Of a stretch of 29,652 bases of DNA, positions 1 to 24,948 are shown one piece after another; position 1 is the first letter of the stretch; each line of letters starts with the position of its first letter. The stretch is from positions 1-29,652 of IMG/VR virus record IMGVR_UViG_3300025276_000146; one strand, given 5' to 3'. The notes beneath the pieces are model-generated. The model had not been told where the DNA came from. It saw nothing but the letters and a program-made list of their open reading frames with translations, and searched no databases. The DNA comes from a virus. A program made the translations under genes and the position numbers.

Positions 1-1612
1 GATTTGATGGCCCTGTTGTATACAAAGTAGTTTCACCAGTCTTGTAAACTCTTAATTGGATTTGCACTGCCGTACTCTTCGTTTCTGCATAAGGGTTTTG
101 ATTCGAACCACCAGTATTTGTAGACCATTTGAATTCGACGCCCGTTTGAGACGAACCATTCCAAACATTATGCCATGTGTTTTTAGCCTTTGCACCAGTT
201 GGATTACTACTATCAAATGGGGCTTTAGCACTACCACCACCTGTTTCGGTTTGCTGGTCAGAACTTGAAGTCCACTTCACATCAATAGACCAAGTGTTAT
301 CAATTGGACTGTATACATCAATGTAGTCTTCATATGCAGGCCCTACCGCTGATGAGTCAACAGCATACCAGTTTGTTTTTACTTTGTTGACATTACTTCC
401 ACTAGTTTGATAGTTGAATTCCATACTTGCAGCTGCTGAATTTGAAAAGCTTGACTGATACGACCTTTGTGTATCCCAAGTTCTGTTTGTTGTCCCTTGT
501 GAATATTGTGCATTTGTATGTTGGGCTGCACTATTGCCTGGGCCCCAAGTAGTATTACCTACCCCATTATCATCTCCATCTACACCATCAAAGATGAAAG
601 GAGTTCTTCCTACTGCTGGAGACCTTTGACTTGTAGTTGCTGGAGTCTGTACATTATATGTGAAAGGTGTTTGACCCTGTCTTGCATATGTAAATGGACT
701 TCTGTGTTGGTACGTAAATGGTGACCTAGCATTTGCAATGTACGGATATGGTGTCTGTGACTCCGAAGGTTGCTGAGCGTCTGAGGGTTGTCTTGCGTTT
801 CTAATGTTAGGTTCTTGACCACTCACTGGGTTTCTATATGTAAATGGAGACCTGTAATTGTACGTAAACGCTGTTTGGTTATTCCTAATATTAGGTTCTT
901 GAGTTGTCACTGATACAGTATAAGTAGTAGGTGTTTGACCAGTTCTCTGATACGTAAACGGTGATTGATTGTTTCTAATGTTAGGTTCTCGACCCGACAC
1001 TGGGTTTCTATAAGTGAAAGGAGACCTGTGTTGATAATCAACTAATGCTTGTGCATTCCTAATATTGGGTTCTTGACCAGCTGCGATATTAGGTTCTTGT
1101 CCAGTTGCAATATAAGGATAAGGTATTTGTGAGTTTGCAATATTTGGTTGTTGCCCACTTACTGGATTCTGATAAGTGAACGGACTAGGATGCTGATAAA
1201 AACCCGAGGCTCTTGCCTGTGCTATATAAGGGTAAGGTTGTTGTGCATTCCTTCCATTCGGTTCTTGTCCAGTTGCAATATAAGGATAAGGTTGTTGATG
1301 TTGATATATTGCTGGTTGTTGTCCAGTCCTAACATATGTAAACGGTGACCTATGTTGATACGCTGCTGGAGATTGTCCTTGTCTTACATAAGTACTAGGT
1401 TGTCTTGCATTTCTTATGTTAGGTTCTTGTGCAGATACAGGATTGTTGTAAATGAACGGACTTCTGTGTTGATAAGTATTTGGTTGACGTGCGTTTGCTG
1501 GAGACTGTATTGCTACCTGTCGTATATTAGGTTCTTGGGCATTTGCGGGAACTCTAGCAATATAAGGTTGCTGAATCTCCGTCGCTATATTTACAAAAGT
1601 TTCTTCAGACAT
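1..1612 (-). CDS. Proline/tyrosine repeat virion protein, 3' end outside window
   Basis: The frame opens at ATG 1612-1610 and stays open to the left edge (537 codons visible), so the C-terminus is missing. The start lies 1 nt after the stop of the upstream 524-residue fibre-like gene, suggesting translational coupling. Residues ~10-335 are built of short units of 8, 10 or 12 residues, each punctuated by proline: QEPNIRN, HRSPFTY, RNPVSG, YPYIATG, RQPSTY. From ~338 the composition changes to a non-repetitive domain rich in Gly, Ser, Asn and Trp (begins FDGVDGDDNGVGNTTWGPGN) that looks like a folded fibre or adhesin head. No signal peptide or TM segment is seen. Position at the distal end of a baseplate/fibre operon suggests a virion-associated fibre or adhesin. 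That role is inferred; I do not recognise a named family. Confidence 0.85.
   Translation of the reverse strand, partial: MSEETFVNIATEIQQPYIARVPANAQEPNIRQVAIQSPANARQPNTYQHRSPFIYNNPVSAQEPNIRNARQPSTYVRQGQSPAAYQHRSPFTYVRTGQQPAIYQHQQPYPYIATGQEPNGRNAQQPYPYIAQARASGFYQHPSPFTYQNPVSGQQPNIANSQIPYPYIATGQEPNIAAGQEPNIRNAQALVDYQHRSPFTYRNPVSGREPNIRNNQSPFTYQRTGQTPTTYTVSVTTQEPNIRNNQTAFTYNYRSPFTYRNPVSGQEPNIRNARQPSDAQQPSESQTPYPYIANARSPFTYQHRSPFTYARQGQTPFTYNVQTPATTSQRSPAVGRTPFIFDGVDGDDNGVGNTTWGPGNSAAQHTNAQYSQGTTNRTWDTQRSYQSSFSNSAAASMEFNYQTSGSNVNKVKTNWYAVDSSAVGPAYEDYIDVYSPIDNTWSIDVKWTSSSDQQTETGGGSAKAPFDSSNPTGAKAKNTWHNVWNGSSQTGVEFKWSTNTGGSNQNPYAETKSTAVQIQLRVYKTGETTLYTTGPSN
600..1590 (-). repeat. Coding repeats: QEPNIR / SPFTY / NPVSG modules
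   Basis: This is a degenerate repeat array inside the proline/tyrosine-rich gene. At protein level about nine QEPNIR-type cores (QEPNIRQ, QEPNIRN, QEPNGRN, QQPNIAN, REPNIRN) alternate with SPFTY-type cores (HRSPFTY, HPSPFTY, NQSPFTY) and YPYIATG/YPYIANA units. At DNA level the plus strand repeatedly shows ttaggttcttg. Unit length varies in steps of two residues (8, 10, 12), always ending in proline, which fits an extended beta or polyproline-like rod rather than a random low-complexity tract. Confidence 0.85.
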
Positions 1613-1613
1613 A

Positions 1614-3188
1614 TCATATCACAAACCATAGGTGTCCAACTTCGGTTCCATCCACACTACTAGGAGCCGATGACACTATTTCATAATCCAATTGTATTTT
1701 ATCTGTAACAAGACTGCCTGAGTGTTTTAACCCATGGCCTGGGTCTGTTGCAAACGTTAATGCATTTCCATCACCAGTATATGTTTCAGTAATACCAGTA
1801 CCACCCACTGTCAATGCAGCGACATCGTTATCTCCGTATGTAGGAACTCCAGTAAGTATAATTTTGTCAGCTGCATCGTCATATGATGCAGTGATGTTTG
1901 TATGAGAACTATGATTTAATAGTCCCGACACTTTGTCTTGTGCAAATTCTTGGAAAGTTACTCCACTGAATGTTAGGTTACCAGCAATATCTACGTTGCC
2001 ACTTACATCTAATGAACCTGCGTCTAGTTCACCACTAAGTGTAACGTTTCTGAATCCAGTGATGTCTTTGTTTGCATCTACTACGACTGTTCTATTTGCA
2101 ACTATGGTTCCTTGAGTTGAACCATCATTGAAGTTTAGTTCGGTTGCAGTTGAACTTACGGTCACACCGTTAAGTGAGAACCCATCTGTTTCAAGAATAC
2201 CATCAACGTCAACGTTACCACTGATATCTAAAGAACCTGCGTCGAGTTCTCCAGTCAATGTTATATTTCTGAATCCAGTAATGTCTTTGTTTGTATCTAC
2301 TGCAACTGCTTTACTAGCAATTACAGTTCCATTTGTTAGGTCATCGATTTTTTCTAAATCTGTTTGGTCTATTCTTGCACTTCCGATTACGAATTCACTT
2401 CCAGCAATTATGTCTGTAGATGACGTAATGTCTCCACCAGCTTGAACTGTTGAAGTTAGAACTGCAGTCGTACCACTTAGATTACCGTTGAATACTGTTG
2501 ATGTGATTGCAGTAAATCCTGTACCCACACCGCCTGTAATCGTTGCTGTTGAGTCGGTAAAGGTTGGTGCGGTGATTGTATGTCCTGTGTCTACTGTAAG
2601 ATTGCCATTAAGGAAGGTCTTACCGTATAATTCTATATCATTGGTACCTGTAAGAGTTGTTACCCTACTGGCTGCATCTGCATAGTTACCATTTATAATA
2701 ACACCGTTATCGTTATGATTATAAATTGTATTTGCAGCGGTCTCTGTAAAGAAACCTATTGCAGTTCCACCTTCAGTTGATGTACCTAAGTATGAACCTG
2801 TGAATGAGTATATGACAACCATGTCATCAACATTAACGGCTGCCGTTAAAGTGATTCTGAAATAGATATTTCCAACAACTTGAGAGATAGAGTAGTCAGC
2901 ACCCTCTAATAATAGAGTAGAATTTTTGAATACTTGGAACCTATCTTGTCTTAGTCTAAGTGTATTATTAAAATCATCTACACCTTGGAATACTGTTTGA
3001 CCTGCTGTTGAGGTATAGATAAACTCTTGAAAGAAAAACGATTTGTCTTCTAGACTATTCAGAGCATCGATTACCGTTTCGGTATTCTCCGTTCTTAAGC
3101 CAGACTTATCACCAACGTCAACTGCTAATTCGTTGTACTTGGTTCTAAACTGTTCAATAGTTGAGTATGTGTCTACTGTCTTTGCCAT
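1614..3188 (-). CDS. Tail fibre-like structural protein (524 aa)
   Basis: The protein starts MAKTVDTYSTIEQFRTKYNE and its ATG overlaps the previous stop as TAATG. Residues ~1-45 form a helical N-terminus of a kind seen on marine T4-like fibre proteins. Residues ~50-125 hold a beta module beginning YTSTAGQTVFQGVDDF and containing VFKNSTLLLEG. The middle is a beta-rich, low-charge region with two copies of an ITGFRNxTLxGELDAGSLDxSGN block separated by an ATELNFNDG turn, typical of trimeric beta-helical fibres. The C-terminus (HGLKHSG, then a Ser/Asp-rich tail) is probably the distal tip. It lies between a small coiled-coil gene and the repeat protein. The exact T4 equivalent is unclear; long or short fibre and whisker are all possible. 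Confidence 0.8.
   Translation of the reverse strand: MAKTVDTYSTIEQFRTKYNELAVDVGDKSGLRTENTETVIDALNSLEDKSFFFQEFIYTSTAGQTVFQGVDDFNNTLRLRQDRFQVFKNSTLLLEGADYSISQVVGNIYFRITLTAAVNVDDMVVIYSFTGSYLGTSTEGGTAIGFFTETAANTIYNHNDNGVIINGNYADAASRVTTLTGTNDIELYGKTFLNGNLTVDTGHTITAPTFTDSTATITGGVGTGFTAITSTVFNGNLSGTTAVLTSTVQAGGDITSSTDIIAGSEFVIGSARIDQTDLEKIDDLTNGTVIASKAVAVDTNKDITGFRNITLTGELDAGSLDISGNVDVDGILETDGFSLNGVTVSSTATELNFNDGSTQGTIVANRTVVVDANKDITGFRNVTLSGELDAGSLDVSGNVDIAGNLTFSGVTFQEFAQDKVSGLLNHSSHTNITASYDDAADKIILTGVPTYGDNDVAALTVGGTGITETYTGDGNALTFATDPGHGLKHSGSLVTDKIQLDYEIVSSAPSSVDGTEVGHLWFVI
1996..2308 (-). repeat. Two spaced direct repeats inside the fibre gene
   Basis: About 90 bp near 1996-2089 and near 2215-2308 are diverged copies of each other, encoding ITGFRNVTLSGELDAGSLDV and ITGFRNITLTGELDAGSLDI. 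The shared DNA core is tttctgaatccagt. They repeat the fibre shaft unit about 220 bp apart and could recombine. Confidence 0.75.
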
Positions 3189-3389: not shown

Positions 3390-6300
3390 TTATGCAAGTG
3401 CCATACATCTCAATGCAGTTACCGCTGGTACCACTGAGGTGTTTTGACCTTGTCCTACTATCTTAACTACGAATCCACTAAACTCGGGTAAGTTGTTTAC
3501 AGTAAACTCATATTCTTTAAAGTTTCTTGCATCAGCTTCTGTTGCCACATCGGGTGCGCCAGTTGTATTGAAATATTCAAAACCGACATCATCTAGTAAA
3601 GTTTCTTCGTCATTTTTGATGATTTTATACATCAATTTAACTTCTGTTGTTGGTGGTCTAAAGACATCGCAAATAACCTTAATGGATGTTGCTGGAGTCT
3701 TGAGATTAACCTTTCTTGTTACATAGACCATTACGTTATTATCACCTTCGGACTCTGTTGATGGGACATATACTGACCCACTTGGTAGAGAATTTGTAGT
3801 TGTATTAACTTTCTTCGAAGTTGCACTGTCTATGTTATTAATTCTGTTTGCAATACCTAAGCAACCACATGTTTGTACGTCAATCATAGGTGATATATTA
3901 GGGTTAAATGACATTAATTGTAACTGTAGGTTAAACGATTTCTGTGAGGACATGTTTAACTCTTCATTTTCGGGTGAAGCCACGATTGCTGGTGCATCCA
4001 TGAAGACATTGTCATTTAATGTTACAAATTTATTTGTTAGGTTCCTTGTATATACAGTTCCATTGATACTACCTTCGGGTGAGTACTGAGGAGTTGTAAG
4101 AACGTTTGCACTAATTATAGTTCCTTTCAATTGTACTGAAGGAATCATTGTGTGTAATGCATCGAAGTAATAGTTTCTAGTTGCAGTTGCGCTACTTCCA
4201 CCACCGATTGTTGAATCGAATGCATATGAAGCTGAAAAACTATAACTTGATACCGAAGGAGTGATTCTAAATGAATCTATTCCTCTATCTGCCATTGTAC
4301 TGGCAAGATGTAGTTTATTAAGAGATGAAAGAGGACATCCACCGAGGGTGTCTTCGACTGTACCTAATACAACGGTTACTTCTGCAGTTCCAGTTCCCAT
4401 GTCTGTGATGACAATACTATCACCAGTAGTGTAGTTCTGTCCACATTTTAGAATGTTTACATCTGTTACTGCACCACTTGCTACGATAACTTCAAATTTG
4501 ATTCCACTACCTGTTCCACCACTATGGACATCATTCGTACAATCGATTGTTGCATCTGCTGGTAATGTTCCACTACCAGTCGTTGAAAAACTAGTTACGA
4601 GTACTGCAGAATTTTTCTTATCTGCAACAATACCTGCTAGAGTTACGTTATCTTTACTACTAGTATCATCATAGAAACCATGTTGATATGAATATACTTT
4701 GATTTTCTTATCAGCAAAAGTTTCGATTGGGTTTAACTGTAGTTTAGTTGCTGGTATAGCATCGTTTTCAAAATTAACATTACCTATTTTTGTAATATCA
4801 TATTTTGCAACTTTCATGTTAAATTTAAGGTCGTCTGTCTGTTCTGCAGTCCAAGTGGAAGCATTCTGAGACATGAATAATGACCCAGCATATGGTTGAC
4901 CACTTATAACTTCTGCAGTCACTATGTCTGTTTCTCCCATTCTAGAAATGAAGCACTCATACTCGTTTGAGTTAGAGTAAACAACGAAACAATATTCATT
5001 GTCTTGTTCTAAATGAACTGCTGAATCAAATGTAAATGTTGTTTTAACTGAACCATCTGCAGAGGTATTAATATCTGCTGGATTCTTAGTAACATCTGAG
5101 AATGGCATTACAATCTGGCCTGGATATCCATTGACCATGTTTCTAATTTGTACTGAACAAGGCATGAATGTATCTTTTGTTGAAAAGAACAAGTCGATTG
5201 AAGTCATGTCCATACCACCCTGTGCATCAACCAAGAATGATTGTGCAAGTGGGTCACCCCATCCTCTCATCTCTCCACCATTCAATATTTGGATTAGAGG
5301 TCTGTCAATTGACAATCCACTGAAATCTCTTCTGTCAATAAATGGTACTGCTGGTGGCAACGGAGGCGGTGTTGGTAGAGATATAACAGGTGGTATAAAC
5401 CTAATATTTGGTATAATGTTAGGTATCAATATCGGTATTGGTATCTCGGGAATGAATATATCAATTATAACTGGTATGTTATCAATTGGTATCTCATTGA
5501 CTGGCGGTAGGTCGGGTGCAGTAGTATCATGTACTTCTGAGTTCAGTCTTTCACCTCTTCTAGAGAAATCTCTAGTTGCTGAACGGTCTTCTCTAATAAC
5601 TCTACCATTTCTTGTTGAAACTACTTCTGTTTGAGACGCTTGCAATATACCTTGTGCAGTATACATTGCATTACCTTGTGAAGCAGGGTTGGCCATGTTG
5701 TAGAAACTTGAAGTTATTCTAAAGTCTCTTTGTCCTGTTGGGAATCGTTGAGTTGCATTGTTAGGCAATACAAATACTGCTCTTAGTCTACCATTACCAT
5801 CTGTTTTACACTGTAGTGGTAAATTAGCTGCAAGTGTAAGGAAGTCCTCATCACTTGAACCTTCAACAAATGAATCGGGTGTTTGAGCATACGTTGAACT
5901 ATAAGGTCTTACAAATTTGTTAACATTGATGTTATCAAAGTAGAAGTAATGGTTCGAATTTGGTTTTAAATTAGTTGCATCAACTGTAATAAGTCTTGTA
6001 CGGATAAATGGTATCAATGACATTGACACAATTCTATCGTTTCTTGTCTCTACAAAATCTTCAACTACACTTGTTGAAACACCAGTTCTTGTTTGAATTT
6101 CGGGTGTGTCTGTAAGTTCTCTACTAACCTGTAGTCCAGCAATCCATTCACCACCTTGTAGTGGGTCTCCACTCCATGAACCATTTGAAGTTGCTTGTAC
6201 TTCACTTGATACAGTAGATGGTTCTCCTGCCCATGTTGTTTGCCATGAGTTCCAAACTGTTCCTAATGCATTTGCATTAGTAGACATCAATGCATCGAAG

Positions 6301-9300
6301 TTACCTTCACGGTTAACTCTTACATCTGGCAGTCTGTCTGTGTCTTGCCAAATATCTGTATCGGGTGATAACTTAATGTTACCAATGAATGCAAATACGT
6401 GATAAGGGTTTACGTTTATTGAACGAGATGCTTTTGTTTGATTGACATAACTAACTTCACTATATGGTAAAGTAATCATATCACCAGTTCTTTGATAGTT
6501 AGATGATGCACCAAGATTCTGTGTGACACCGAAGAACTGAGTGAACGACTTAGGTCTTAACATACCTGTTTTAGTATCGATAGCACAGTTATAGTCGGGA
6601 TGATTTACATCACCAATCTTGTGACCTCTAAAGTTATCTACTAGGAAGCCTGACTTGTATCTATCAAATCCTTCTGCATCTAGTATCTGTTTTGTTTGTG
6701 TGTCTTTTTCTAATAAAGAAAGAGACGTAATTCTTTCAAGGTTAGTAACCCTGTTGTTTATCTTACCGATATCCTTCATGGTATATCGTCTATGGTCGAA
6801 ACTTCTTACCGATATATCACTTAACTTATTGGTATAAGGTGGTATTTTCATTTCAAACATTTGAATACAATCGTCTAATGCTGTTGGCTTAGTCGGTGAT
6901 AATGCTGGTGTTCCCTGTGATATTTCGAACTTACCTTTCTTATGTAAGAATACTTTATCGATTCTTCCAACATAGAATGAGATGTTACCAGTAACAGCCG
7001 AACCACTTACTGGAACGTCTACTGAGTTAGCACCTGTTGATGTAATACCAGTTCTTGCACCCAAGAATGAACGACCACTCTCATATCCAAATGGTGCATA
7101 GTATGCTCCATTCGAATTATCCGATAAATCTACTGGTGATGATGGGTCATTATCTGTTGTTCCGAAACTTGAGGTTCCAAGAATTTGTCCTACAACTGGT
7201 CTAAAGTCCAATGCATCTGAAAGTTCATATGTTCCATCGGGTTCTAATCCACCTAAATCTACTTTGTTTGGTGAGTAAACTGGGATGTCTGAATAATCAA
7301 TTGTTGAATATGAAGATACATCAAAGAAATCTCCACCACCCGATACTCTAAAGTAATCGAATACGATTAGAAGAGGCCCGTTAGGTGTTGGTTGCCCAGG
7401 CTTTAATGTTAGTTTTGATAGGTCATAATACCCATCTCTCTGACCGTTGTCAAAGAAGTATCTGTCTTTAATATCGAGTGAACCAGTTTCCAGTCCAGTT
7501 GCCAGTGGCATTGTTCCAGTTGCTAAGGATGTTTGTCCTACTACGGTTTCACTTGCAGAGAATACTTCACCATCTGTTGATTTGTAATACCAGTATGATT
7601 TGGTACCACCACCATTTTTGATGAGACATGCTCTTGCGCCCGATGTTTGTCCAATGAATGTTTCATAGTTGACAAATGTACCACTTGTTGTGGTTATAAT
7701 TCCGTTAGGTGTGATTGGTGTTCCATCCACTCCTTCGTATACTGCAACAATCTTGTGTACGTCTGCAACACCAAATGATATATCTTTATCATCGTATGCA
7801 GTTCCGTAATGACCATTACTACTTCTTGGTAATGATACTTTAAGACATCTTGCTTGAGATAACGTTTTACCTCTTGCAGTAGGGGATGCTACAATAACTG
7901 TGTACGTTGCATCGATTATAGCAGTATTGTTCCCACTAGGAACGGTCAATGTTAATGTTTGTGTATTTCCACTGGTTGTAACGTTTGGTGATAGGTCTTC
8001 AATATTAATTATGTCACCAGCATTGTATCCGCCACCAATTGCTTCTCTTACTGAGATTGCAAAGTTGTCTGTAGTTCTAGAATCAAATTGTTCGCCTGCG
8101 TTAGTTACAATTTGTATACTAGTTCCACCGACTTGTTTACTTACCTGTCTTCTTACTTTTGAAGTAAGTGGAGTATGGGTCTTGACCCAATCTCTAGGGA
8201 ATGAATGAATGTTTGCAGTTTGGTTTTGGTCATATAGTTTTGCACGTCTTCTGATTGCATTACCACTATATGTTGATGAACCAACAGCAGTTAAAGTTAA
8301 ACTTGTTTCTGACTGTACCGAAAGTACTTGGTTTATAGTACCTGCTTGGTCTAGGAGTTTGTCCCCTTCTTTTAGTTCTTTTGCAAACTGAGTTGCAAAA
8401 CCTGTAACGGTTGCTGAACCAGTTGACATTGTAACTGTTCCAGTTACGACATTGTCTAGGGTTAGTGAGATGTCTGCTTTAAATATCTCTCTTGCAACTA
8501 CGTTAGGTGTTTGTAAGATTGACCTTGCACGGTCTAAGTTATAAGCTCTTATTGCAGTATTATTAGCTGCAGTAATTGTTGCAGTGTTACCTGTACCAAT
8601 TGCTGTTATTGCATCTGAAGTTGTGAATACACCTTGTACATCATGCACATATAGTCCTGCTGAACTTCCACTTCCATCAATGTGATGAACTATAGCACTT
8701 GCACCACTTACACTACCAGTGACTTTATCACCTGCTACAAATGTATTTGTTTGTGTTCCAGTAATTTTAGTGAACATCTTGATATCAAATAGATATAGAT
8801 TGAATACTGCATCCGTACCATATACGTCACTTGAATCAACACCACTAACATGGTCAACGTTTCTAATTCTACATGTTCCAATGTTTAAACCAGCAGACGC
8901 TGCTAAACCATCATGTAGTAATGCTGGATTGTGTGGGTCTATTACATCTGAACCAACTTCGTTACCGAACTCGGGTAGACCATGAGCATTGAATACTCTT
9001 AATTTGTTTCCTAATCTAATAGGTGCTGATACACCAGTTAGGGATTCTGTTGTTCTTGCTTTTGGAATGTTTAGAGTAGTTGTTCCAACCTTATCGATTT
9101 CATATCCTCTAACATATGCCTTGCCCGGCGATACCATGAATACAAATCTTGCTTCTTCTCCACCATTATTTTTTGTGTAGAAACCTAGATTGGTTCCATC
9201 GTCTAAATGTTGTCTCATTGATGCAGTGAATTGTGAAACTACAAAGTCTCCGTTTGCATCGAATGTTCTTCTTGCAAGAGTATTTTCTATCTCTGCATAT

Positions 9301-10187
9301 TTTGTTTTGTCTATTTTAAGTGTGATGACACCTGCGTTAACTCTTGATAGTTCAACGAAGGATGTTCCCAATACTGAATCTAAAGTGTGTTTACCTAATG
9401 TTAGATTGAATTGTAAACGGTCAGCACCAACTGCGTTTTCGTTTGTTGTTCCCGAGGCGTTATCTTCTAGAGATGTATCAGCTGATGATGTTACTAATGT
9501 TTCAACAATGTCTAAACCCACTCTGAAAGAAGGTGAACCATTGTATTTTTCTAACATTAATGTTTGTTTTGCAACCTTGACAAAGAACCCTCTTACGAAT
9601 ACAATACCTTCTGATATTTCTGCAAGAGATGCTCTACCAGTTGGGGACTCTGATTTAGGTTGGACTTCGAAATCATTGTTCGATGCTGAATCAGCAGTAA
9701 CAGTACCATTTGCATCATAACCAACTAACTCTAATGTTTCTGTTGCAGAGAACATGAAGTCGGCACTAGCATTAGTACCTTGTTGAACTGGTCTAACAAA
9801 TAATGTTAGTTTATCTGCAGTAGTTTCTGCAGTAGATGTTACAACTTTTGCAACGACACCAGTAGTTTGACCTCTTACATACTTCTCATGAAATGATTCT
9901 CTGTATGTTTCTACTGAAGTGTCACCCGCTGAATTTGGGTTTGCAGCTTTTACTTTAACAAAGTAGATATCCATATCGATGTTCGTTTGAGCACCTTGGA
10001 TAATTGTTCCCTCTTCGAAGAAATGGTCACCCATTCTTTCAATTTGGTTTTGCAATATAGATTGAGACTGAGTTAACTCCCTTGCTTGCAGAGGACGGCC
10101 CGCACGATAAAGAACTTTATGGAACTTTTTATCTTCGGAAAAATCGTCGTAATAAGGTGTTATATTTAAGTCTGTCTTCTCTGCCAT
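3390..10187 (-). CDS. Giant DUF4815-like virion structural protein (2265 aa)
   Basis: The N-terminus (DLNITPYYDDF, then KFHKVLYRAGRPLQARELTQ and QSILQNQIERMGDHFF) has the signature I associate with DUF4815 proteins, large structural components near the baseplate of marine T4-like phages and relatives. The chain is mostly Ser/Thr/Gly-rich beta modules. At residues ~1560-1620 there is a Pro/Ile-rich segment (IPEIPIPILIPNIIPNIRF, then PTPPPLPP) that separates the N-terminal two thirds from a C-terminal part starting DRRDFSGLSIDRPLIQ. A GxxY-type module (VTDVNILKCGQNYTTGDSI) lies near residues 1895-1940. The gene occupies the place of T4 genes 9/10 after gp8 and probably supplies the peripheral wedge or fibre-attachment structure. 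The start is ATG 10187 with only a weak upstream purine tract. The DUF assignment is from memory of the N-terminal motif. Confidence 0.85.
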   Translation of the reverse strand: MAEKTDLNITPYYDDFSEDKKFHKVLYRAGRPLQARELTQSQSILQNQIERMGDHFFEEGTIIQGAQTNIDMDIYFVKVKAANPNSAGDTSVETYRESFHEKYVRGQTTGVVAKVVTSTAETTADKLTLFVRPVQQGTNASADFMFSATETLELVGYDANGTVTADSASNNDFEVQPKSESPTGRASLAEISEGIVFVRGFFVKVAKQTLMLEKYNGSPSFRVGLDIVETLVTSSADTSLEDNASGTTNENAVGADRLQFNLTLGKHTLDSVLGTSFVELSRVNAGVITLKIDKTKYAEIENTLARRTFDANGDFVVSQFTASMRQHLDDGTNLGFYTKNNGGEEARFVFMVSPGKAYVRGYEIDKVGTTTLNIPKARTTESLTGVSAPIRLGNKLRVFNAHGLPEFGNEVGSDVIDPHNPALLHDGLAASAGLNIGTCRIRNVDHVSGVDSSDVYGTDAVFNLYLFDIKMFTKITGTQTNTFVAGDKVTGSVSGASAIVHHIDGSGSSAGLYVHDVQGVFTTSDAITAIGTGNTATITAANNTAIRAYNLDRARSILQTPNVVAREIFKADISLTLDNVVTGTVTMSTGSATVTGFATQFAKELKEGDKLLDQAGTINQVLSVQSETSLTLTAVGSSTYSGNAIRRRAKLYDQNQTANIHSFPRDWVKTHTPLTSKVRRQVSKQVGGTSIQIVTNAGEQFDSRTTDNFAISVREAIGGGYNAGDIINIEDLSPNVTTSGNTQTLTLTVPSGNNTAIIDATYTVIVASPTARGKTLSQARCLKVSLPRSSNGHYGTAYDDKDISFGVADVHKIVAVYEGVDGTPITPNGIITTTSGTFVNYETFIGQTSGARACLIKNGGGTKSYWYYKSTDGEVFSASETVVGQTSLATGTMPLATGLETGSLDIKDRYFFDNGQRDGYYDLSKLTLKPGQPTPNGPLLIVFDYFRVSGGGDFFDVSSYSTIDYSDIPVYSPNKVDLGGLEPDGTYELSDALDFRPVVGQILGTSSFGTTDNDPSSPVDLSDNSNGAYYAPFGYESGRSFLGARTGITSTGANSVDVPVSGSAVTGNISFYVGRIDKVFLHKKGKFEISQGTPALSPTKPTALDDCIQMFEMKIPPYTNKLSDISVRSFDHRRYTMKDIGKINNRVTNLERITSLSLLEKDTQTKQILDAEGFDRYKSGFLVDNFRGHKIGDVNHPDYNCAIDTKTGMLRPKSFTQFFGVTQNLGASSNYQRTGDMITLPYSEVSYVNQTKASRSINVNPYHVFAFIGNIKLSPDTDIWQDTDRLPDVRVNREGNFDALMSTNANALGTVWNSWQTTWAGEPSTVSSEVQATSNGSWSGDPLQGGEWIAGLQVSRELTDTPEIQTRTGVSTSVVEDFVETRNDRIVSMSLIPFIRTRLITVDATNLKPNSNHYFYFDNINVNKFVRPYSSTYAQTPDSFVEGSSDEDFLTLAANLPLQCKTDGNGRLRAVFVLPNNATQRFPTGQRDFRITSSFYNMANPASQGNAMYTAQGILQASQTEVVSTRNGRVIREDRSATRDFSRRGERLNSEVHDTTAPDLPPVNEIPIDNIPVIIDIFIPEIPIPILIPNIIPNIRFIPPVISLPTPPPLPPAVPFIDRRDFSGLSIDRPLIQILNGGEMRGWGDPLAQSFLVDAQGGMDMTSIDLFFSTKDTFMPCSVQIRNMVNGYPGQIVMPFSDVTKNPADINTSADGSVKTTFTFDSAVHLEQDNEYCFVVYSNSNEYECFISRMGETDIVTAEVISGQPYAGSLFMSQNASTWTAEQTDDLKFNMKVAKYDITKIGNVNFENDAIPATKLQLNPIETFADKKIKVYSYQHGFYDDTSSKDNVTLAGIVADKKNSAVLVTSFSTTGSGTLPADATIDCTNDVHSGGTGSGIKFEVIVASGAVTDVNILKCGQNYTTGDSIVITDMGTGTAEVTVVLGTVEDTLGGCPLSSLNKLHLASTMADRGIDSFRITPSVSSYSFSASYAFDSTIGGGSSATATRNYYFDALHTMIPSVQLKGTIISANVLTTPQYSPEGSINGTVYTRNLTNKFVTLNDNVFMDAPAIVASPENEELNMSSQKSFNLQLQLMSFNPNISPMIDVQTCGCLGIANRINNIDSATSKKVNTTTNSLPSGSVYVPSTESEGDNNVMVYVTRKVNLKTPATSIKVICDVFRPPTTEVKLMYKIIKNDEETLLDDVGFEYFNTTGAPDVATEADARNFKEYEFTVNNLPEFSGFVVKIVGQGQNTSVVPAVTALRCMALA

Positions 10188-10233: not shown

Positions 10234-11700
10234 TTACATTTCAATAATTAATTTAATATCTTCTATTTGGTCTGCAGCCCTTGAAACAGCACCACGATTC
10301 TCAATGTACATGATGTTGCCAGAGTAATGTTCTACTTCGGGATGTGCAGCAGATACTGCTGAGACGGTACCAATGTTTGCACCAGCCTTATAGACTACGT
10401 CAGCATTGGCGAAGTTGAAATACCCACCTTCTGAGTTTGCAACTGGAATGTGAGATACCACTGTACCGTTTATAGAAACGATTCTTGATACTGCAGTTCC
10501 TGCTACATCTGAGCTTGAATCTGTGATAAGGTCATCGGGAGATAGACCTGTAACACTTGATAGTGTCATCTGTGAATAAGCAGTCATTGAAGTGTCTGAA
10601 CCTATAATTGTTGTACCATTTTTGAATGGGTCTTGCACCAATCCAATTCTTCTAAAGTCGTTATCTGTTGGGAAGTCTCCACCACCTTCACCGAACTCAA
10701 ATCTAGAGTTGATGATTATGTAGTTTCCACCTAATTCTTCTACTGGGTCTGCACCGTGTCCAATGATTGGTGATACGATTACCTTAATGACGCCTGATGA
10801 ACCACCACCGATTCCACTGATACCAGCAACATCGATAGTTGCACGTCTGTATCCCGAACCTACAGTTGTTACTGTTGCATGTGTGATTGCTCCACTTGAT
10901 ACGTGTACTGAAACTTTACCTAGTGAACCATCTCCGTCGATTGCAACATTTGCGTATGTACCATCTGTATAACCCGAACCTGCTGAAGTTACAACGGCAT
11001 GATTTGCTCCACCGTCTACTGCATCTTTTTCAACATCGTACTGTGCTGTAGAATCATCTGTTGCTACAGTTCCTAATGCACCGTTAGTACCAGTACCGTA
11101 AATCTCTGATTGAGCTCCGATTGTTTTAACTGGGATAAAGTCATTAGTTACGAATTTGATTACGTCTGAAGCAGAGATTGAGTACATATATTTCCATACA
11201 TATCCTCTACCTGTTCCTGCGCCTGAATCTGCAAGTGTTAATAAGGTTGTTGAAGATGTACCAGTAGGTTTGACGCTTGAGGCAACAACAGCACCATCTG
11301 AATCTCTACCAGTTCTTATACATTTGTATACGTTGTACTCTTCTGTCATCACATAAAATCTAGAATCGTAAATATTTGAGGCACTAGTTGCAGTGGATGT
11401 GTTTGTTGCACTTACATCATGCTGATATTCGTCATAGGTTGTGTTAGTAGTCCAGTTATATCTGACTAAACCATGAGTTACGTCTGAATTAGGCACCTTC
11501 TTAAGTGCAATCATGTCTGACCATGCGTCTAACTCTTCACCAACTGAGTTTGCTGGTGCAGTAGGAACTGCATCGTTCGGCCAAGCAAATGACCTTCCTA
11601 TGAATATGTATGTTGAAGAAGCGGTTTCTGCTGATGAGAAGTCTTCTTTGAATTGTTTCGCATTATGTGTACGAAACTTCTCTGTAATTATAGCTGCCAT
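10234..11700 (-). CDS. gp8: Baseplate wedge protein gp8 (488 aa)
   Basis: This is a homologue of T4 gp8, a wedge subunit. Matching landmarks are the N-terminal ITEKFRTHNAKQFKEDF, the FIGRSFAWPND segment, the DMIALKKVPNSDVTHGLVRY segment and the C-terminal SGNIMYIENRGAVSRAADQ followed by IEDIKLIIEM, which parallels the T4 C-terminus ending in a MIYMENRPP...DQTEEI pattern. It is longer than T4 gp8 (about 334 aa). The excess includes two tandem GSGY modules at residues ~235-290 (VVTSAGSGYTDGTY and TVTTVGSGYRRATI). The start is ATG 11700 with a good Shine-Dalgarno (GGGAGAG, ~8 nt upstream). A doubled late promoter lies ~32-52 nt upstream. It acts in the baseplate wedge with gp6, gp7 and gp53. Confidence 0.92.
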   Translation of the reverse strand: MAAIITEKFRTHNAKQFKEDFSSAETASSTYIFIGRSFAWPNDAVPTAPANSVGEELDAWSDMIALKKVPNSDVTHGLVRYNWTTNTTYDEYQHDVSATNTSTATSASNIYDSRFYVMTEEYNVYKCIRTGRDSDGAVVASSVKPTGTSSTTLLTLADSGAGTGRGYVWKYMYSISASDVIKFVTNDFIPVKTIGAQSEIYGTGTNGALGTVATDDSTAQYDVEKDAVDGGANHAVVTSAGSGYTDGTYANVAIDGDGSLGKVSVHVSSGAITHATVTTVGSGYRRATIDVAGISGIGGGSSGVIKVIVSPIIGHGADPVEELGGNYIIINSRFEFGEGGGDFPTDNDFRRIGLVQDPFKNGTTIIGSDTSMTAYSQMTLSSVTGLSPDDLITDSSSDVAGTAVSRIVSINGTVVSHIPVANSEGGYFNFANADVVYKAGANIGTVSAVSAAHPEVEHYSGNIMYIENRGAVSRAADQIEDIKLIIEM

Positions 11701-16943: not shown

Positions 16944-18818
16944 TTAATATGCCGAGGATGATGTTGATTTATAACCAACTCCAGCACTCGACTCACCACT
17001 TGCAATGGTGTCTACCTCACCTGTTACCTTAACATCTATTGGTGCAATATCAATTAGATTACCTCTACTTGCTACTACATCATTACCTGCTGGGATAACT
17101 GTGAAATCAATCGTTGAATCAGTATTACTTGTAGAAGTAATGTTGATGGCATTGATTGTTATTTTTCCATTTGGATAATCCACTGTACCAGCTGTATTGT
17201 CCAAATAAACTCTAGCACCACTTGATAAGTAGTACCTTCGGATTACACCTAAACCATCATCATCGAAATAGTGAAGGTTAGTTGCGTCTCCTTGAGTATA
17301 GAAACCTGTTGTTTGGATGATACCACCACCCACTGAATTATAACCACTGTTAGGGTTATAGAATCCATTACCAAACGAACTTGTATAACCGAGAGTTTTA
17401 CCTACGATTACGTTAGTCGCTTTCTTTAATCTGATATTACATGTGTTAGATAGTATTGCACTATCTGTTTCATCGATTGCCTTAACAAGATTCGAATGTC
17501 TGAATACAGAATCGAAGTTTGCAAGGTTAGTATTATCGAATACATTAATTGCACTCGTTACAAGTGTTACCAACTCTCCGTTAGAGTATTGGGTTGCATT
17601 CTCATTGTACTTGAATATACATGTTATTAAAATTTTAACTATATCTGCATCAACAATAGTAGGTCTTACTGTCAACATGTTCAATGCATTTAGTTTTGTT
17701 TGTACTGACTTCTTCTCTGTGTCTGATAGGTAGTCTGAGTTCTTTGGTTTAAGTGCAATAAACACTTTACCATATTGTGGTGGGTCATTATCTTCTCCAC
17801 CCCATACTGCAACTGCATCTGCGTTCGGGTAATACTCACTGACCTTTGCTTTGTAGTCATTCAGTGTTACCAGTCTGTTCTGAGATGTATAGAACTTTGT
17901 TGCTTTAAATTTGATTGAGTCTATAGATTCTTTCTCTGCACCACCGCCTGCCTTGACGACTCTTGTAGTTGTGATATCTGAGAATCCATTGATGTTACTA
18001 GTAATTGAGAACTTGTTCGCTCCGTCTGCGTGAGTCACATCAACAACAATGTAAGTTACTGTTATTGTATCACCATCTTTTAGAGCTGCACCTAGAACAC
18101 CATCTCCGAAGTATAGTTCTACATACCCCTCTTCGTTTTCTTGAGTGTAGTATACTTTAGATGATGTAGTAATTGAAGAGATATTTGTTGACAATGCATA
18201 GGTCGATGTCACACCATTAGATGCTACTGTTACAGCAATCTGTTGTTTATCGATTCTTGGATTTGATAATACAAATTTAGGATTTGCAATCTGTGTGTCA
18301 AAGATAAATGTATCAGTTGAATAGGTTCCTTGAACTAAATTTACATCCGTGTAATTGTAAGTAGTTCCGTTCTGAGATGGTCTGACTGTTGAAGTCACAA
18401 CAAAGTTATAGTTAGTTCCATCATAAACTGTTTGGAAAACTGTTCCTCTTAGTAACTGCATCGCTGCAGTAGATGGGGAAGTCCCATCTGAATTGATTAC
18501 TTTAGAACATGCAACATCAATTGTTGCTACTGAAGCAGTCTCGGAAGCAGGTGTAAATCCTAAATCCTTTGCACGAGACACTACGTTCTTTCTCATCTGA
18601 GCAGAATCTAAGAATAGTTCAGAAGCTGCAATGTTAGTATTTACTGCACCAATGTGTGATGCATATGCAAGTAGGTCAATCAACACTGACATGTTAGACC
18701 CTTCAAAGTCATAATCCTTAAACTTATCTTGACCTTTGAGATACCCTTTTAGATTATCTGCAATTGCATCAAAATCTAAATCGGTTACGTTTATTTGTGA
18801 ACTGTTTGTTGTTGCCAT
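16944..18818 (-). CDS. gp6: Baseplate wedge protein gp6 (624 aa)
   Basis: This is a homologue of T4 gp6 (660 aa), the wedge protein that forms the inner ring of the baseplate and belongs to the gpJ-like wedge group. The diagnostic block is at residues ~40-93: SNMSVLIDLLAYASHIGAVN followed by ELFLDSAQMRKNVVSRAKDL and GFTPAS. Further family-like stretches are a middle part with TRVVKAGGGAEKESIDSIKF and then LVTLNDYKAKVSEYYPNADA. The ATG at 18818 follows the gp25 stop directly (TAAGATG), so gp25 and gp6 are co-translated, as expected for proteins of one wedge. The C-terminus is short and Ser-rich. No frameshift or missing segment is apparent. Confidence 0.93.
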   Translation of the reverse strand: MATTNSSQINVTDLDFDAIADNLKGYLKGQDKFKDYDFEGSNMSVLIDLLAYASHIGAVNTNIAASELFLDSAQMRKNVVSRAKDLGFTPASETASVATIDVACSKVINSDGTSPSTAAMQLLRGTVFQTVYDGTNYNFVVTSTVRPSQNGTTYNYTDVNLVQGTYSTDTFIFDTQIANPKFVLSNPRIDKQQIAVTVASNGVTSTYALSTNISSITTSSKVYYTQENEEGYVELYFGDGVLGAALKDGDTITVTYIVVDVTHADGANKFSITSNINGFSDITTTRVVKAGGGAEKESIDSIKFKATKFYTSQNRLVTLNDYKAKVSEYYPNADAVAVWGGEDNDPPQYGKVFIALKPKNSDYLSDTEKKSVQTKLNALNMLTVRPTIVDADIVKILITCIFKYNENATQYSNGELVTLVTSAINVFDNTNLANFDSVFRHSNLVKAIDETDSAILSNTCNIRLKKATNVIVGKTLGYTSSFGNGFYNPNSGYNSVGGGIIQTTGFYTQGDATNLHYFDDDGLGVIRRYYLSSGARVYLDNTAGTVDYPNGKITINAINITSTSNTDSTIDFTVIPAGNDVVASRGNLIDIAPIDVKVTGEVDTIASGESSAGVGYKSTSSSAY

Positions 18819-19266: not shown

Positions 19267-20565
19267 CTAACTTGGTTTCTTAGAAGTATATGTACCCGAA
19301 CTTGAACCACCACTTACAATTGTCTTATGTTTGTGGGTTGCAAGTGTCGGAGCTGCTCCAGCCTTAGTTGAGATATCTCCAGTCGCTGCAATTGTTGAAT
19401 CATTTGTTTGAGCTCCAGTGATATGAACCGTTCCGTCAACCTTTAAGTTTGTAGTCATTGTTGTTTCGGGTGAAGTCAATGTAGTATTGCCTGTGACATC
19501 TGCATTCAGTGTTCCACCTATCTGTGCATCTACGTTACCTTCGGTCACATCTAAGTTGACGTTTCCTTTTGTTACTGTTGTAAGAACATTTCCTTCTGAA
19601 ACTGTTGTAGTCATGTCTCCTAGTAATACGTTTGTTGTTACGTTACCTGTATTGACATTGATAGTTACGTTACCTTTCTCTACGGTCACCTCTGCATTAC
19701 CAGCGATGTAAATCTTGTCGTCCTTACATACTACTTGATAGTGGTCGTTAACTATTCGTGAAACCTCTGACCCATCGGGATGTATCTCATGGAACGTTCC
19801 CGACCTGTGATGTATGTTGAGTCTTTCTGCACCTAGTGTGTCATCAACTTCGATTAGATGACCCGACTCTGTTGCTGTTACTTTGTTGTATGGATAGACT
19901 GGTGCTTCTGCACTGTCTAAGAATCCTTCTAGGTTGTCTGATAGTTTATGTTCATATAGAGTTCCTTCTTTGGAAGTTCCTCTAGCAAAACTTGACAAAT
20001 CCGAAGCATCGGTATATAATGGATAGTATGGTAAATCTTTTTCTGTAAGTTCTGTCTCTGTGATTGTAGAACCTGTTGCATCATACATTACCGTAATTTC
20101 TTTTGGAGTCTTTGGTGCAGTATCCATTGCCGTTGTTAATCCAAATCCCCTTCTAGTATCTTGTACTGGATTAGGCCCATCGGATGTATCTTTGTAATCG
20201 TCAACGGTTAATTTTCTTGGGTCATTGAACCCTCTTTCAGTTGTCCTAGTTATAAGATTATCTTGGACGGTTTCTTTGTATCCTGCTTGAGTGATTCCTG
20301 CTGTTGTTCCTAGGATGATTGGGTCTTGTTTTAAATCCCCATCTCTAAAGTAACCGAATACAGTAGAACCTTCTATCAGTCCATGTTGTGTTCCTATTCC
20401 CGAAAGACCTGCTGTGGTTGTTGGAAGGATTACTTGACACCATGGTAAATCGGGAGACGCAATGTATTGTTTGTCGTCTGTATGAATTCCGTATATACGT
20501 ACACGTACCCTACCTATCATAAGAGGGTCTTGTCTGTCCTCAACTATTCCATAAAAATATTCCAT
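19267..20565 (-). CDS. gp5: Baseplate central spike gp5, no lysozyme domain (432 aa)
   Basis: Residues ~1-110 form the OB-fold typical of gp5/VgrG spikes (MEYFYGIVEDRQDPLMIGRV, then GYFRDGDLKQDPIILG). T4 gp5 (575 aa) carries a lysozyme domain after this. Here residues ~110-280 show no lysozyme-like catalytic layout and seem to be a linker with a small domain. Residues ~285-375 are a triple beta-helix needle with 9-residue repeats of the form xxTxVxxGN (VEKGNVTINV, NTGNVTTNV, SEGNVLTTV). The C-terminus has an HxH pair (H411, H413) before a Ser/Gly tail. The protein punctures the outer membrane at the tip of the tail tube. Start and upstream stop overlap as TAATG with the gp27-like gene. Confidence 0.9.
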   Translation of the reverse strand: MEYFYGIVEDRQDPLMIGRVRVRIYGIHTDDKQYIASPDLPWCQVILPTTTAGLSGIGTQHGLIEGSTVFGYFRDGDLKQDPIILGTTAGITQAGYKETVQDNLITRTTERGFNDPRKLTVDDYKDTSDGPNPVQDTRRGFGLTTAMDTAPKTPKEITVMYDATGSTITETELTEKDLPYYPLYTDASDLSSFARGTSKEGTLYEHKLSDNLEGFLDSAEAPVYPYNKVTATESGHLIEVDDTLGAERLNIHHRSGTFHEIHPDGSEVSRIVNDHYQVVCKDDKIYIAGNAEVTVEKGNVTINVNTGNVTTNVLLGDMTTTVSEGNVLTTVTKGNVNLDVTEGNVDAQIGGTLNADVTGNTTLTSPETTMTTNLKVDGTVHITGAQTNDSTIAATGDISTKAGAAPTLATHKHKTIVSGGSSSGTYTSKKPS

Positions 20566-22731: not shown

Positions 22732-23853
22732 TTAACCACCGCCTGGTTTGTTAGGTTTTTGAGACATTGCAACGGTATCTGACCTTCTACTTGCAAGTGA
22801 CTTATTACCTTCACCAATAGTCTTATCTGCATATGAATTTTTAGATATCTGCTGATAGTTCTCTTGAGTGAGTATTTTTATTTCTGTGAAACTTATTGAC
22901 ATAGATGTTGAGATTGGGTATCCATCTTCGAATAACTTAGTTGAATGTTTGACTGTTACATTTGTACAAACCATAGGTAGGAAGTCATCGAATCTCATTG
23001 CGATTGGGCCTTCCCAAGCAACATCAAAAATATTAGGATAATTGAAATAGTTTTCTACTGCAGTTTCCCCTTCAGCATTACTATATGTATCGGGTAGCAT
23101 TGCAGTCTTGAATGCCCATATGATATCCTGTACTGCTTTTGCTTCCTGTGTATTTCTAGGATAGAATTGGTAATCAAAACTAAAGTCTCTGAAAGGAACT
23201 CCTTCAAACATCTGTTCTTCCATAGGGTTGATTGCTCTACCAGCAAGGAAGTTTGATGCATCACCAACAACCATTGTTGCAAGGGATTGCAGTCCAGTCT
23301 GAATTGCACCTTCTAATGCAGTACCAGTCGCTTGCATTGTTGAACCGTCCATCTTACCATTAAAGGAATCTTTTATTTCTAAGACACCTCTGATACCAGC
23401 ACCAATACCAGTTTTAGCATAAGAGGCATCAACCTTATCATCCATTTCTTCTGGCACGTATAATGCAATCACTGCTTTCTCTGTGGAAAGTAGATTCTTA
23501 TTGTTTGCACCTTCTCTTGCTGTTCTTGGTCTAGTAGTAAAGACGATGAAGTTTTCCACACCGTCACCAATTGGATATTGCATTTCCCTTACTGTAGTCG
23601 CAGGGGACATCTTAGCATACTTTTTAGTGTTTCTAGTTTCTTGACTTTTGCTTAGACTGTTCCTTCTTGCATTCAAAGTCTGATTTGCTTTTTCAGCTTG
23701 TTGTTTAAGTACGTCTGCTTTGGCGTCTGTCAAACCCTCAAAGTCTTTTATATCGTATCCAGTTCCAGTAAGTTTTGCTTGTATTCCTTTTAGGGATTTA
23801 ACGGCACTCTTTGCTTGGTTTACTTTGTTCAGTATCTTGTTGATATTCGGCAT
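22732..23853 (-). CDS. gp48: gp48-like baseplate tail tube cap (373 aa)
   Basis: This is the first gene of the leftward late operon. The C-terminal segment STSMSISFTEIKILTQENYQ corresponds to the T4 gp48 C-terminus (STFTLEITMREIITLNRASL), and the middle PFRDFSFDYQFYPRNTQEAK parallels T4 VFTWDLTPRSTEDL, both part of the tail-tube fold. Length (373 vs about 364) agrees. Residues ~1-75 are highly charged and helical (KLTGTGYDIKDFEGLTDAKA, QQAEKANQTLNARRNSL). The protein would cap the hub and, with gp54, initiate tube assembly. The leader is ~35 nt from a CATAAATA late box. A gp54-type homologue lies on the opposite strand at 26963, supporting assignment of this one as gp48. Confidence 0.8.
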   Translation of the reverse strand: MPNINKILNKVNQAKSAVKSLKGIQAKLTGTGYDIKDFEGLTDAKADVLKQQAEKANQTLNARRNSLSKSQETRNTKKYAKMSPATTVREMQYPIGDGVENFIVFTTRPRTAREGANNKNLLSTEKAVIALYVPEEMDDKVDASYAKTGIGAGIRGVLEIKDSFNGKMDGSTMQATGTALEGAIQTGLQSLATMVVGDASNFLAGRAINPMEEQMFEGVPFRDFSFDYQFYPRNTQEAKAVQDIIWAFKTAMLPDTYSNAEGETAVENYFNYPNIFDVAWEGPIAMRFDDFLPMVCTNVTVKHSTKLFEDGYPISTSMSISFTEIKILTQENYQQISKNSYADKTIGEGNKSLASRRSDTVAMSQKPNKPGGG

Positions 23854-23894: not shown

Positions 23895-23902
23895 TATTTA
23901 TG
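23895..23902 (-). promoter_or_regulatory. T4-type late promoter for the leftward baseplate operon
   Basis: CATAAATA on the minus strand (7/8 match to the late consensus) lies ~41 nt upstream of the gp48-like ATG, with predicted +1 near 23889. The complement of its CAT is the gp4 start codon on the plus strand, so promoter and start codon share bases. Confidence 0.5.
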
Positions 23903-24349
23903 GCATATTCGGGTAAGTTTAAACCAAAGAACTACAAAAAATATAGAGGAGACCCTACTAAAATCTTTTATAGGTCGTTGTGGGAGCGTAGATTCATGGT
24001 TTACTGTGATGAAAACAGCAATATCCTTGAATGGGGAAGTGAAGAAATCATAATCCCCTACATTTCTCCCTTAGACAAACGAGCTCATAGGTATTTTCCC
24101 GACTTTTACATAAAGTATGTGAACGCACAAGGTAAAATACTCCGTGAAATCATAGAAGTGAAACCAAAACGACAAACTAAACCCCCCAAGATGCCTAAAA
24201 GAAAAACTCAAAGGTACTACAAAGAGGTTGCAACCTACGTTGTCAACGAAGCAAAGTTTAAAGCTGCAGAAAGTTTCTGCAAAGATAGGAAACTAGGTTT
24301 TAGAATACTAACCGAAGACCATTTACTCCCAAAGAAGGTAAAAAAATGA
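23900..24349 (+). CDS. gp4: Head completion nuclease gp4 (149 aa)
   Basis: This is a close homologue of T4 gp4 (also called gp50/4; ~150 aa), which acts on filled heads before tail joining and has been reported to be a nuclease. Conserved stretches are IFYRSLWERRFMVYCDENSN, WGSEEIIIPY, RAHRYFPDFYI and EIIEVKPKRQTKPPK. The last two give a PD-(D/E)xK-type active site, with D68, E86 and K88 the likely catalytic residues. The protein is basic, consistent with DNA binding. It is the first gene of the rightward operon and overlaps the next start by 4 nt (ATGA). An upstream ATG at 23884 is out of frame and is quickly stopped. Confidence 0.95.
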   Translation: MAYSGKFKPKNYKKYRGDPTKIFYRSLWERRFMVYCDENSNILEWGSEEIIIPYISPLDKRAHRYFPDFYIKYVNAQGKILREIIEVKPKRQTKPPKMPKRKTQRYYKEVATYVVNEAKFKAAESFCKDRKLGFRILTEDHLLPKKVKK

Positions 24350-24948
24350 AGAAATTATATGTATTTGATTTAGATGGAGTCTTGATTGACTCAAAAGCAA
24401 ACATGGAACTGGCATTCAACAAGTTAGACACTGGTAAACCTTTTGAGGATACCACTAATACGTTCCCAAGTTACTTTAAACACATCGGTAAACCGTTTAA
24501 AGATATCTTAACTGAGATGGGTATACTTACTGACCAAGATGAGTTGATGAGAAGGTACAATAGATACTCTGCAGCGAACTCTAAGTTGATAAAGTTTTAC
24601 GATGGGGTGGAAGAACACCTTCAATCTTTAGAGCGTGACGGTAAGAAATTAGCCGTGGTAACTTCGAAGTCGGAATCACGAGCAAATGCTATTCTCGCTG
24701 AGATTAACGTCAATTTTGAAATCATATGTTGTCCCACTGAAGGATTGAGAGGTAAACCGTCCCCCGACCAACTACTGTATACCCTTGCATATTGTAACAC
24801 TGACCCAAAGGATGCAGTCTATGTTGGTGACATGCAAGTAGATATGGATTGTGCAAACAGAGCGGGAGTGGATTTCATTTACGCAGAATATGGTTATGGA
24901 GATATAGAGTCATGTTGGAACAGAGCAGAATGCATACAGTCGGTTTAA
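24346..24948 (+). CDS. HAD-family phosphatase with cap domain (200 aa)
   Basis: This is a haloacid dehalogenase superfamily hydrolase. Motif I is YVFDLDGVLIDS with nucleophile D8 and acid/base D10. Residues ~15-85 form an alpha-helical C1 cap. Motif II is VVTSKS (T106/S107), motif III is GKPSP (K137), and motif IV is YVGDMQVDMDCA (D162, D166). The cap and size resemble phosphoglycolate phosphatase or beta-phosphoglucomutase-type members more than KdsC, which lacks a cap. It overlaps gp4 by 4 nt and the kdsB-like gene by 19 nt, so a joint role in sugar-phosphate metabolism leading to a CMP-sugar is plausible. The substrate cannot be told from sequence. Confidence 0.9.
   Translation: MKKLYVFDLDGVLIDSKANMELAFNKLDTGKPFEDTTNTFPSYFKHIGKPFKDILTEMGILTDQDELMRRYNRYSAANSKLIKFYDGVEEHLQSLERDGKKLAVVTSKSESRANAILAEINVNFEIICCPTEGLRGKPSPDQLLYTLAYCNTDPKDAVYVGDMQVDMDCANRAGVDFIYAEYGYGDIESCWNRAECIQSV

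Follow-up and report, generated by a model that had tools for sequence, protein, structure and literature searches.

Two neighbouring genes, here called gene 1 and gene 2, very probably encode the two chains of an antiparallel beta fibre that are held in exact residue register over the whole length of their repeats. The antiparallel pairing, the register and the pairing code are strongly supported at the level of sequence, and from them we infer the three-dimensional structure of the fibre, its stoichiometry and its binding of a receptor. We analysed a virus record of 29,652 bases (the window, meaning this whole stretch of DNA) together with relatives labelled L###, among which the contig L002 comes from this very virus. 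Gene 1 is the last ORF on the minus strand of the window; its start codon lies at 1610-1612 and it exits the window at base 2 (Table 1). Extending the contig, as an earlier note on this DNA had advised, recovered the full 552-aa gene 1 product on L002, identical to the window protein at 537/537 residues. Its partner gene 2 lies beyond the window, at L002:9661-10788. The baseplate genes of the window are T4-like, and gene 1 occupies the position of a tail-fibre gene, in the fibre cluster after VrlC; the region downstream of VrlC is described as the host recognition cluster in pelagimyophages (PMC7029224). Genes for a TnsA-like endonuclease, a HAD hydrolase and a cytidylyltransferase adjoin the tail genes on the plus strand, at window positions 23900-25649.

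Table 1. Features of the 29,652-base window, with the subdivisions of gene 1
Feature	Position	Strand	Remark
Gene 1 (ORF A): repeat strand and C-terminal head	2..1612	(-)	537 of 552 aa, cut by window edge
Short non-repeat N-terminus, aa 1-15	1568..1612	(-)	putative basal end of fibre
Period-2 repeat strand, aa 16-338	599..1567	(-)	first to last in-phase proline
C-terminal head, aa 339-537 here	2..598	(-)	predicted beta sandwich; putative distal tip
524-aa neighbour, fibre-like, not a repeat protein	1614..3188	(-)	
VrlC/phrog_358 baseplate-region protein	3390..10187	(-)	marks start of host recognition cluster
gp8-like baseplate gene	10234-11700		
gp6-like baseplate gene	16944-18818		
Hub/lysozyme-like protein	19267-20565		
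Tail tube cap	22732-23853		

The repeat array that had been noticed at about 600-1590 is real, its prolines at residues 16-338 mapping to window positions 599-1567. All 44 of these prolines fall on even residue numbers, whereas 100,000 shuffles of the array placed at most 35 on one parity. The units are 6, 8, 10 or 12 residues long, and steps of 2, 14 or 16 occur sporadically; the earlier description, units of 8, 10 or 12, was right on all three lengths and had missed the six-residue ones. Identity autocorrelation of the array is strong at the even lags 8, 18, 28 and 54 and weak at odd ones, and a collagen-like three-residue periodicity was not found, the period being 2 and lag 3 being depleted. 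The same grammar governs the family. Three scans of viral contigs yielded 122 distinct ORFs, 106 of them non-redundant at 90%, and 104 were analysed after removal of the unrelated L012 and of L113_6728, which belongs to the family but has fewer than 8 core motifs. Their proline-to-proline gaps are even in 3840 cases and odd in 9, against about 46% even in shuffles, and 99 of the 104 ORFs have no odd gap at all. Counted as distinct inter-proline segments, 1140 of 1149 are even, and the 9 odd ones lie mostly where the array is interrupted. At these loci, 94 ORFs outside the family had 1431 even and 1338 odd proline gaps. As an extended beta strand requires a period of 2, the strict period points to a two-residue beta register. 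Two scans returned 237 and 288 confirmed viral stretches with the family, possibly overlapping.

Two residue alphabets alternate strictly along the chains. The proline face carries I, Q, T, R, N and D; the other face carries Y (2723 versus 6), F (1162 versus 24) and H (800 versus 7), and in addition A, S, G, E, V, L and K (142 versus 0 for K). In close pairs, proline was substituted at 1.1% of aligned sites, compared with 12-13% elsewhere. An attempt to assign a buried face from substitution rates failed, since the rates of the two faces (13.4% and 11.9%) are nearly alike. Within octads, which read P-x-[I/T]-x-x-x-[Q/R]-x, entropy is lowest at positions a, c and g.

Repeat ORFs mostly occur as adjacent two-gene sets on one strand that share a unit vocabulary, and the sets are of two kinds. 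A pair-1 gene 1 closes with a variable head, and its gene 2 with VKGVF..KIHQ. A pair-2 gene 1 opens with KTPTGWN motifs and closes with either a Hint domain or short tails, while its gene 2 closes with RWDG..WPGTP. The window holds gene 1 of a pair 1, and its virus also carries a pair 2 (L164). In many cases the pair-2 gene 1 finishes with a run of glycines and then a Hint/intein-like domain (C..HN), as in L085:4875-7196, L103:4857-6956, L078, L074 and L120:6579-7793; the tip of the fibre may therefore process itself.

The two arrays of a pair are nearly equal in length. Across 33 non-redundant pairs, with array lengths of 186-552 residues obtained by score-based segmentation of the period-2 region, the lengths of the two genes correlate at a Pearson r of 0.975, and the median difference is 6 in true pairs versus 80 when partners are shuffled. 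The comparison of repeat number among relatives that the earlier note had called for thus shows array lengths that vary between viruses and are locked between gene 1 and gene 2. Anchoring the arrays on flanking motifs gives sharper figures. In pair 1, the gene 2 span minus the gene 1 span equals 11 in 12/12 cases with an RTPFIF-type head anchor, with gene 1 spans of 222, 310, 316, 322, 332 or 336; these are 12 of 26 pair-1 rows (L091 was measured by hand, the remaining 11 by script), and in 14 rows the array end has no such anchor. One group of pair 2 has an offset of 5 in six of seven rows (spans 350, 386, 412, 430, 458 and 518), and among 11 other correctly anchored pair-2 rows the offset is 1 in nine (spans 246-544) and 3 in two (L079, L072). 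The pair-2 offset of L034 is out by 44. Regex anchors were mis-placed in six further pair-2 rows (L062, L068, L070, L075, L076 and L082), which were judged by their code-chosen register only.

Length changes are mirrored between the genes. Alignments of gene 1 and of gene 2 across 14 pairs of related genomes showed repeat indels in 11, of which 10 have an equal net change in both genes; as the gene pairs are evolutionarily related, neither these nor the other counts over pairs represent independent events. Wherever several indels resolve cleanly, their order in gene 2 is the reverse of that in gene 1. Between the window virus and L100, gene 1 differs by -10, +2, +8 and gene 2 by +8, +2, -10. 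The indels of L074/L078 read 10, 20 in gene 1 and 20, 10 in gene 2, and those of L025/L027 read 44, 2 and 2, 44; the longest series, in L062/L075, runs +6, +2, +2, +2, +12, +2 in gene 1 and +2, +12, +4, +2, +6 in gene 2. L055/L056 show matched -2 indels despite a mis-segmented gene 2, and in L058/L080 and L038/L073 net lengths match while the order is not clean. The exception is L028/L034, in which gene 2 of L034 alone loses 44 residues in an otherwise identical pair, either a real variant or an assembly collapse. An indel lies about as far from the end of the array in gene 1 as its counterpart does from the start of gene 2, which indicates an antiparallel arrangement.

The same direction emerges from the prolines. 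Antiparallel alignment opposed more of them than parallel alignment in 33/33 pairs (0.85 versus 0.50). When the order of gene 2 segments was permuted, the observed proline match was never reached in 31 of the 33 pairs (300 shuffles each), and gene 1 set against gene 2 of another genome gave an average of 0.51 and a maximum of 0.905. Beyond prolines, opposed positions follow a code, tabulated from all but three of the 33 pairs (those below a 70% cut). Observed counts far exceed expectation (in brackets) for H-R, 271 (31), S-N, 271 (56), R-I, 369 (68), and T-Q, 419 (125), and R is never opposed to R (0 versus 58 expected). One face pairs H-R, S-N, F-Q, F-E, L-E, Y-A and Y-G, and the other P-P, R-I and T-Q. 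At the level of units, where 840 segments of equal length are matched, PFTYxHRS opposes PNIRxAQE and PFTYRN opposes PVSAQE; the two chains of L101 are almost entirely of opposite unit type.

With unit types fixed, mutual information is concentrated in two cells: position b of the Y-unit against f of the R-unit (0.81-0.86 bits) and against h (0.58-0.65 bits). All remaining cells hold at most 0.19 bits (175 and 110 distinct octad pairs), whichever gene holds the Y-unit. This is the signal of direct and diagonal neighbours expected across an antiparallel pair. In the pairing code, F faces A..Q/E, L faces Q..E, H faces R, S faces N, and Y faces A. An R-unit with A..Q stands opposite F in 57/58 cases, Q..E opposite L (31) or T (9) of 48, N..Q opposite S in 10/10, S..T opposite A in 10/14, and R..N opposite D in 7/10.

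We scored the code with proline cells excluded and with similar pairs removed from training. It picked the register in 29 of 30 such leave-relatives-out tests; in the sole miss, L080, the proline peak is tied and the code prefers +8. For the gene 1 and gene 2 products of L002, the code places the antiparallel diagonal at an index sum of 356. A slip of 8 residues drops the code score from about 0.8 to about zero or below, with a few reaching 0.3. A fresh scan supplied 41 new distinct pairs, six of them dissimilar to the earlier ones, and five of these six held-out pairs fit the code register, including L120; L180 fails. L120 (JAAXIF010000105.1), filed under a Sphingobacteriales MAG, has a swapped gene order and lies among phage fibre and neck-like genes; it is probably a viral contig within the MAG bin. 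At least 70% of prolines are opposed in 61 of 68 distinct pairs, scored with register tables that include most of these same pairs and so are not independent of them. In the code-chosen register, the overhang at the base, measured for the VKG class of gene 2 from the first gene 1 proline to the AKVKG motif of gene 2, is +5 in 21/26 VKG pairs, and it is -3 in 36/40 RWD pairs. The fit is not clean in L055-L057, in which gene 2 is mis-segmented, or in L111, L113, L180, L192, L201 and L209.

Six single ORFs join a gene 1-like start, a middle loop and a gene 2-like end. Scored with tables trained on two-gene pairs only, each of the six has one unique best fold-back centre, and the score is clearly positive in four: best versus next, +136/-64 for L060, +127/-60 for L044, +92/-72 for L046 and +78/-64 for L053. 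The fold-back index sums of L060 and L044 are 502 and 456. Scores for L069 (-29/-72) and L063 (-48/-67) are negative though still best. Judged by these scores, the fused ORFs would fold back as the two-gene model predicts, clearly so in four of six.

In our reading the array is organised by its pairing with the neighbouring gene's product, and the proline-punctuated unit proposed earlier finds no support in that role. The two chains would run as extended beta strands side by side and antiparallel, and the paired chains would form a tail fibre of the virion. Its base may consist of the gene 1 N-terminus and the gene 2 C-terminal VKGVF or RWDG motif; a short similarity between the N-terminal motifs of pair 2 and the C-terminal motifs of pair 1 (E 5e-4, a single comparison) fits such a shared-base placement. 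The tip would be made by the variable gene 1 head and the gene 2 N-terminus. Several A:B pairs probably bundle, perhaps three of them by analogy with the trimeric fibres of other phages. If the strands run along the axis, 322 residues would give a fibre about 106 nm long. The variable letter at Y-unit b (F, L, S, A, T or D), set against R-unit f and h, would block both out-of-register zipping and pairing with the virus's other fibre pair. We consider it probable that this amounts to a complementarity like that of nucleic acids, in which a small pairing alphabet sets one antiparallel register and one partner, allows matched length changes in two genes and stops cross-pairing. The analogy with complementary nucleic acid strands extends to the antiparallel course and to a register drawn from few pairing letters; in contrast, the strands here are protein beta strands and their code is partly degenerate and contextual.

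Known phage fibres are mostly homotrimers, and their repeats say little about partner choice. One very unlikely alternative is that gene 1 and gene 2 products do not pair but build separate homotrimers, each a triple-stranded beta-helix of the T4 gp5 or gp12 kind in which every face takes one unit of 8 or 6 residues. The C-terminal beta-helix of gp5 (PF22178) and those of the gp12 type are likewise fibrous phage beta structures with alternating faces and low-complexity sequence, and their 8 or about 6 residues per unit, reported as the residues per turn, match the units of 8 and 6 here (PMC3004832, PMC4576200). The low entropy of octad positions a, c and g agrees with a beta-helix, as do weak matches to Gp5_trimer_C (PF22178) in 5/56 members at E of no more than 0.1 (the lowest E was 3.5e-4, and the single bit score given, 18.5, falls short of the curated cut-off of 30.9). 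Periodic models, however, fit periodic sequences easily, and a homotrimer predicts neither equal array lengths, nor reversed indels, nor complementarity between two genes. The gp5 and gp12 helices are products of one gene with a Gly/Asn/Val consensus and have no second protein or length lock, whereas the arrays here come from two genes and are antiparallel and complementary; nor do the octads here follow the gp5-type G-[N/D]-x4-V-[polar]. At E up to 0.1 the 56 members between them matched 15 families, and Hexapep, the family of the left-handed hexapeptide beta-helix, was not one of these; matches to Cementoin (PF10511) in 10/56 members were taken to reflect a similar short-repeat composition, not homology. 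A search of PDB sequences gave no match.

The receptor-binding needle of T4 gp37 is likewise the long thin tip of a T4-like fibre. Its strands run up and down the needle, which is much shorter than the fibre proposed here and is characterised by HxH iron-binding motifs; we know of no pairing code for it. Gp37 differs as a single-gene homotrimer, described with seven iron sites (PMC6957217).

A very unlikely alternative accepts a filament and places it outside the virion, secreted or on the cell surface during infection, tied for instance to phage-borne curli secretion genes. CsgG (curli secretion) is present in 7/10 repeat-bearing contigs, those behind L005, L057, L087, L104, L063, L069 and L117, yet the csg genes sit elsewhere in the contigs, and the repeat genes adjoin VrlC among fibre genes, as in the pelagimyophage host recognition cluster. 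CsgG is also described in pelagimyophages (PMC7029224). None of the 10 contigs carries a Photo_RC (psbA-type) gene, and gp6 of the window is closest to gp6 of Methylophilales and Pelagibacter phages (39-42% identity). We take the carriers to be uncultured T4-like phages resembling pelagimyophages. Fibres of the pelagimyophage and cyanomyophage host recognition cluster (HTVC008M, Mosig, Melnitz, S-RIM14) occupy the same place after VrlC and, unlike the window gene, have no match to the repeat profile.

Among isolate phages, tblastn with the window protein or its head found no match in 50,697 records, and repeat queries and blastn gave weak or short matches only. A match in SEN22 proved to be a different QQQPTLATV repeat, and those in ACG-2014e and Aeromonas were antisense to their genes. 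Because the BLAST low-complexity filter limits such searches, repeat profile A4 was run too; it matched 0/7 isolates (HTVC008M, Mosig, Melnitz-3, S-RIM14, metaG-MbCM1, P-SSM5 and ACG-2014e) and 10/10 repeat-bearing contigs, the positive control. Pseudomonas phage YA3, searched with the smaller profile A2 only, gave no match.

The earlier suggestion that selection maintains the repeats is borne out in relatives, where it is purifying: dN/dS within the repeats across 44 related ORF pairs is mostly 0.03-0.4 (overall 0-0.8, one undefined). Heads of relatives often have dN/dS near or above 1. In L038/L040, the head has a dN of 0.20 at a ratio of 1.0, against a dN of 0.008 at a ratio of 0.06 in the stalk, and in L104 against four near-identical partners the head ratio is 1.3-1.6; the contrast is mixed, being absent in L074/L078 and other pairs. 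A distinct non-repeat domain does follow the array, as had been proposed: AlphaFold2, run on single chains, predicts a beta sandwich for residues 360-550 (pLDDT mostly 65-85). We leave its fold unnamed because no confident structural relative was found, the best Foldseek hit having an E of 0.04 and VIA a Z of 4.1 (3.8 A over 100 residues). The idea of a stalk presenting a head kept its conserved stalk, its non-repeat head and its place in the tail-fibre region after VrlC; the word "flexible" found no support.

The array alone took no fold in the single-chain models (pLDDT about 23, or about 44 with 56 sequences), a result expected if a partner is needed and equally expected for disorder. A disordered or PPII spacer with no fixed partner, to which the Pro/Gln-rich composition would also suit, is nevertheless extremely unlikely, as odd gaps are almost absent and the sequences of gene 1 and gene 2 are complementary. 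Of the regular beta or PPII geometry first read from the two-residue steps, the extended beta form is the one supported, with near-absolute parity. The earlier note had also coupled pure disorder with a loss of unit spacing as signs against its reading; these parted, the lone chain being unstructured and the parity of spacing nearly absolute. It is scarcely credible that the mirror is a leftover of sequence history alone, with gene 2 arising from gene 1 by duplication, conversion or inversion, for although the genes are adjacent and share a unit vocabulary, a search for an inverted DNA repeat that might explain the mirror found none, opposed units differ (PFTYxHRS against PNIRxAQE, and near-wholly opposite types in L101), and the indel order is reversed with both genes on one strand.

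For the antiparallel two-chain fibre, sequence alone yields the partner, the direction, the register and much of the residue contact map. It would offer a readable protein-protein code and a test case for predicting beta structure. Protein engineers would gain orthogonal beta zippers of natural origin, and the attachment organs of uncultured T4-like phages would become easier to study. If the model is true, these viruses lengthen, shorten and reshuffle a fibre through matched changes in two genes, and two fibres in one virion are kept from cross-pairing. Our searches of the open-access PMC literature turned up no precedent for an antiparallel fibre that is encoded by two genes, locked in length and governed by a residue code; the nearest known systems are homotrimeric beta fibres. 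Another two-residue rhythm occurs in the VrlC proteins (window 3390-10187; L010:1-4482), which have stretches of alternating P/I/V, including a long PVPV run in that of L010.
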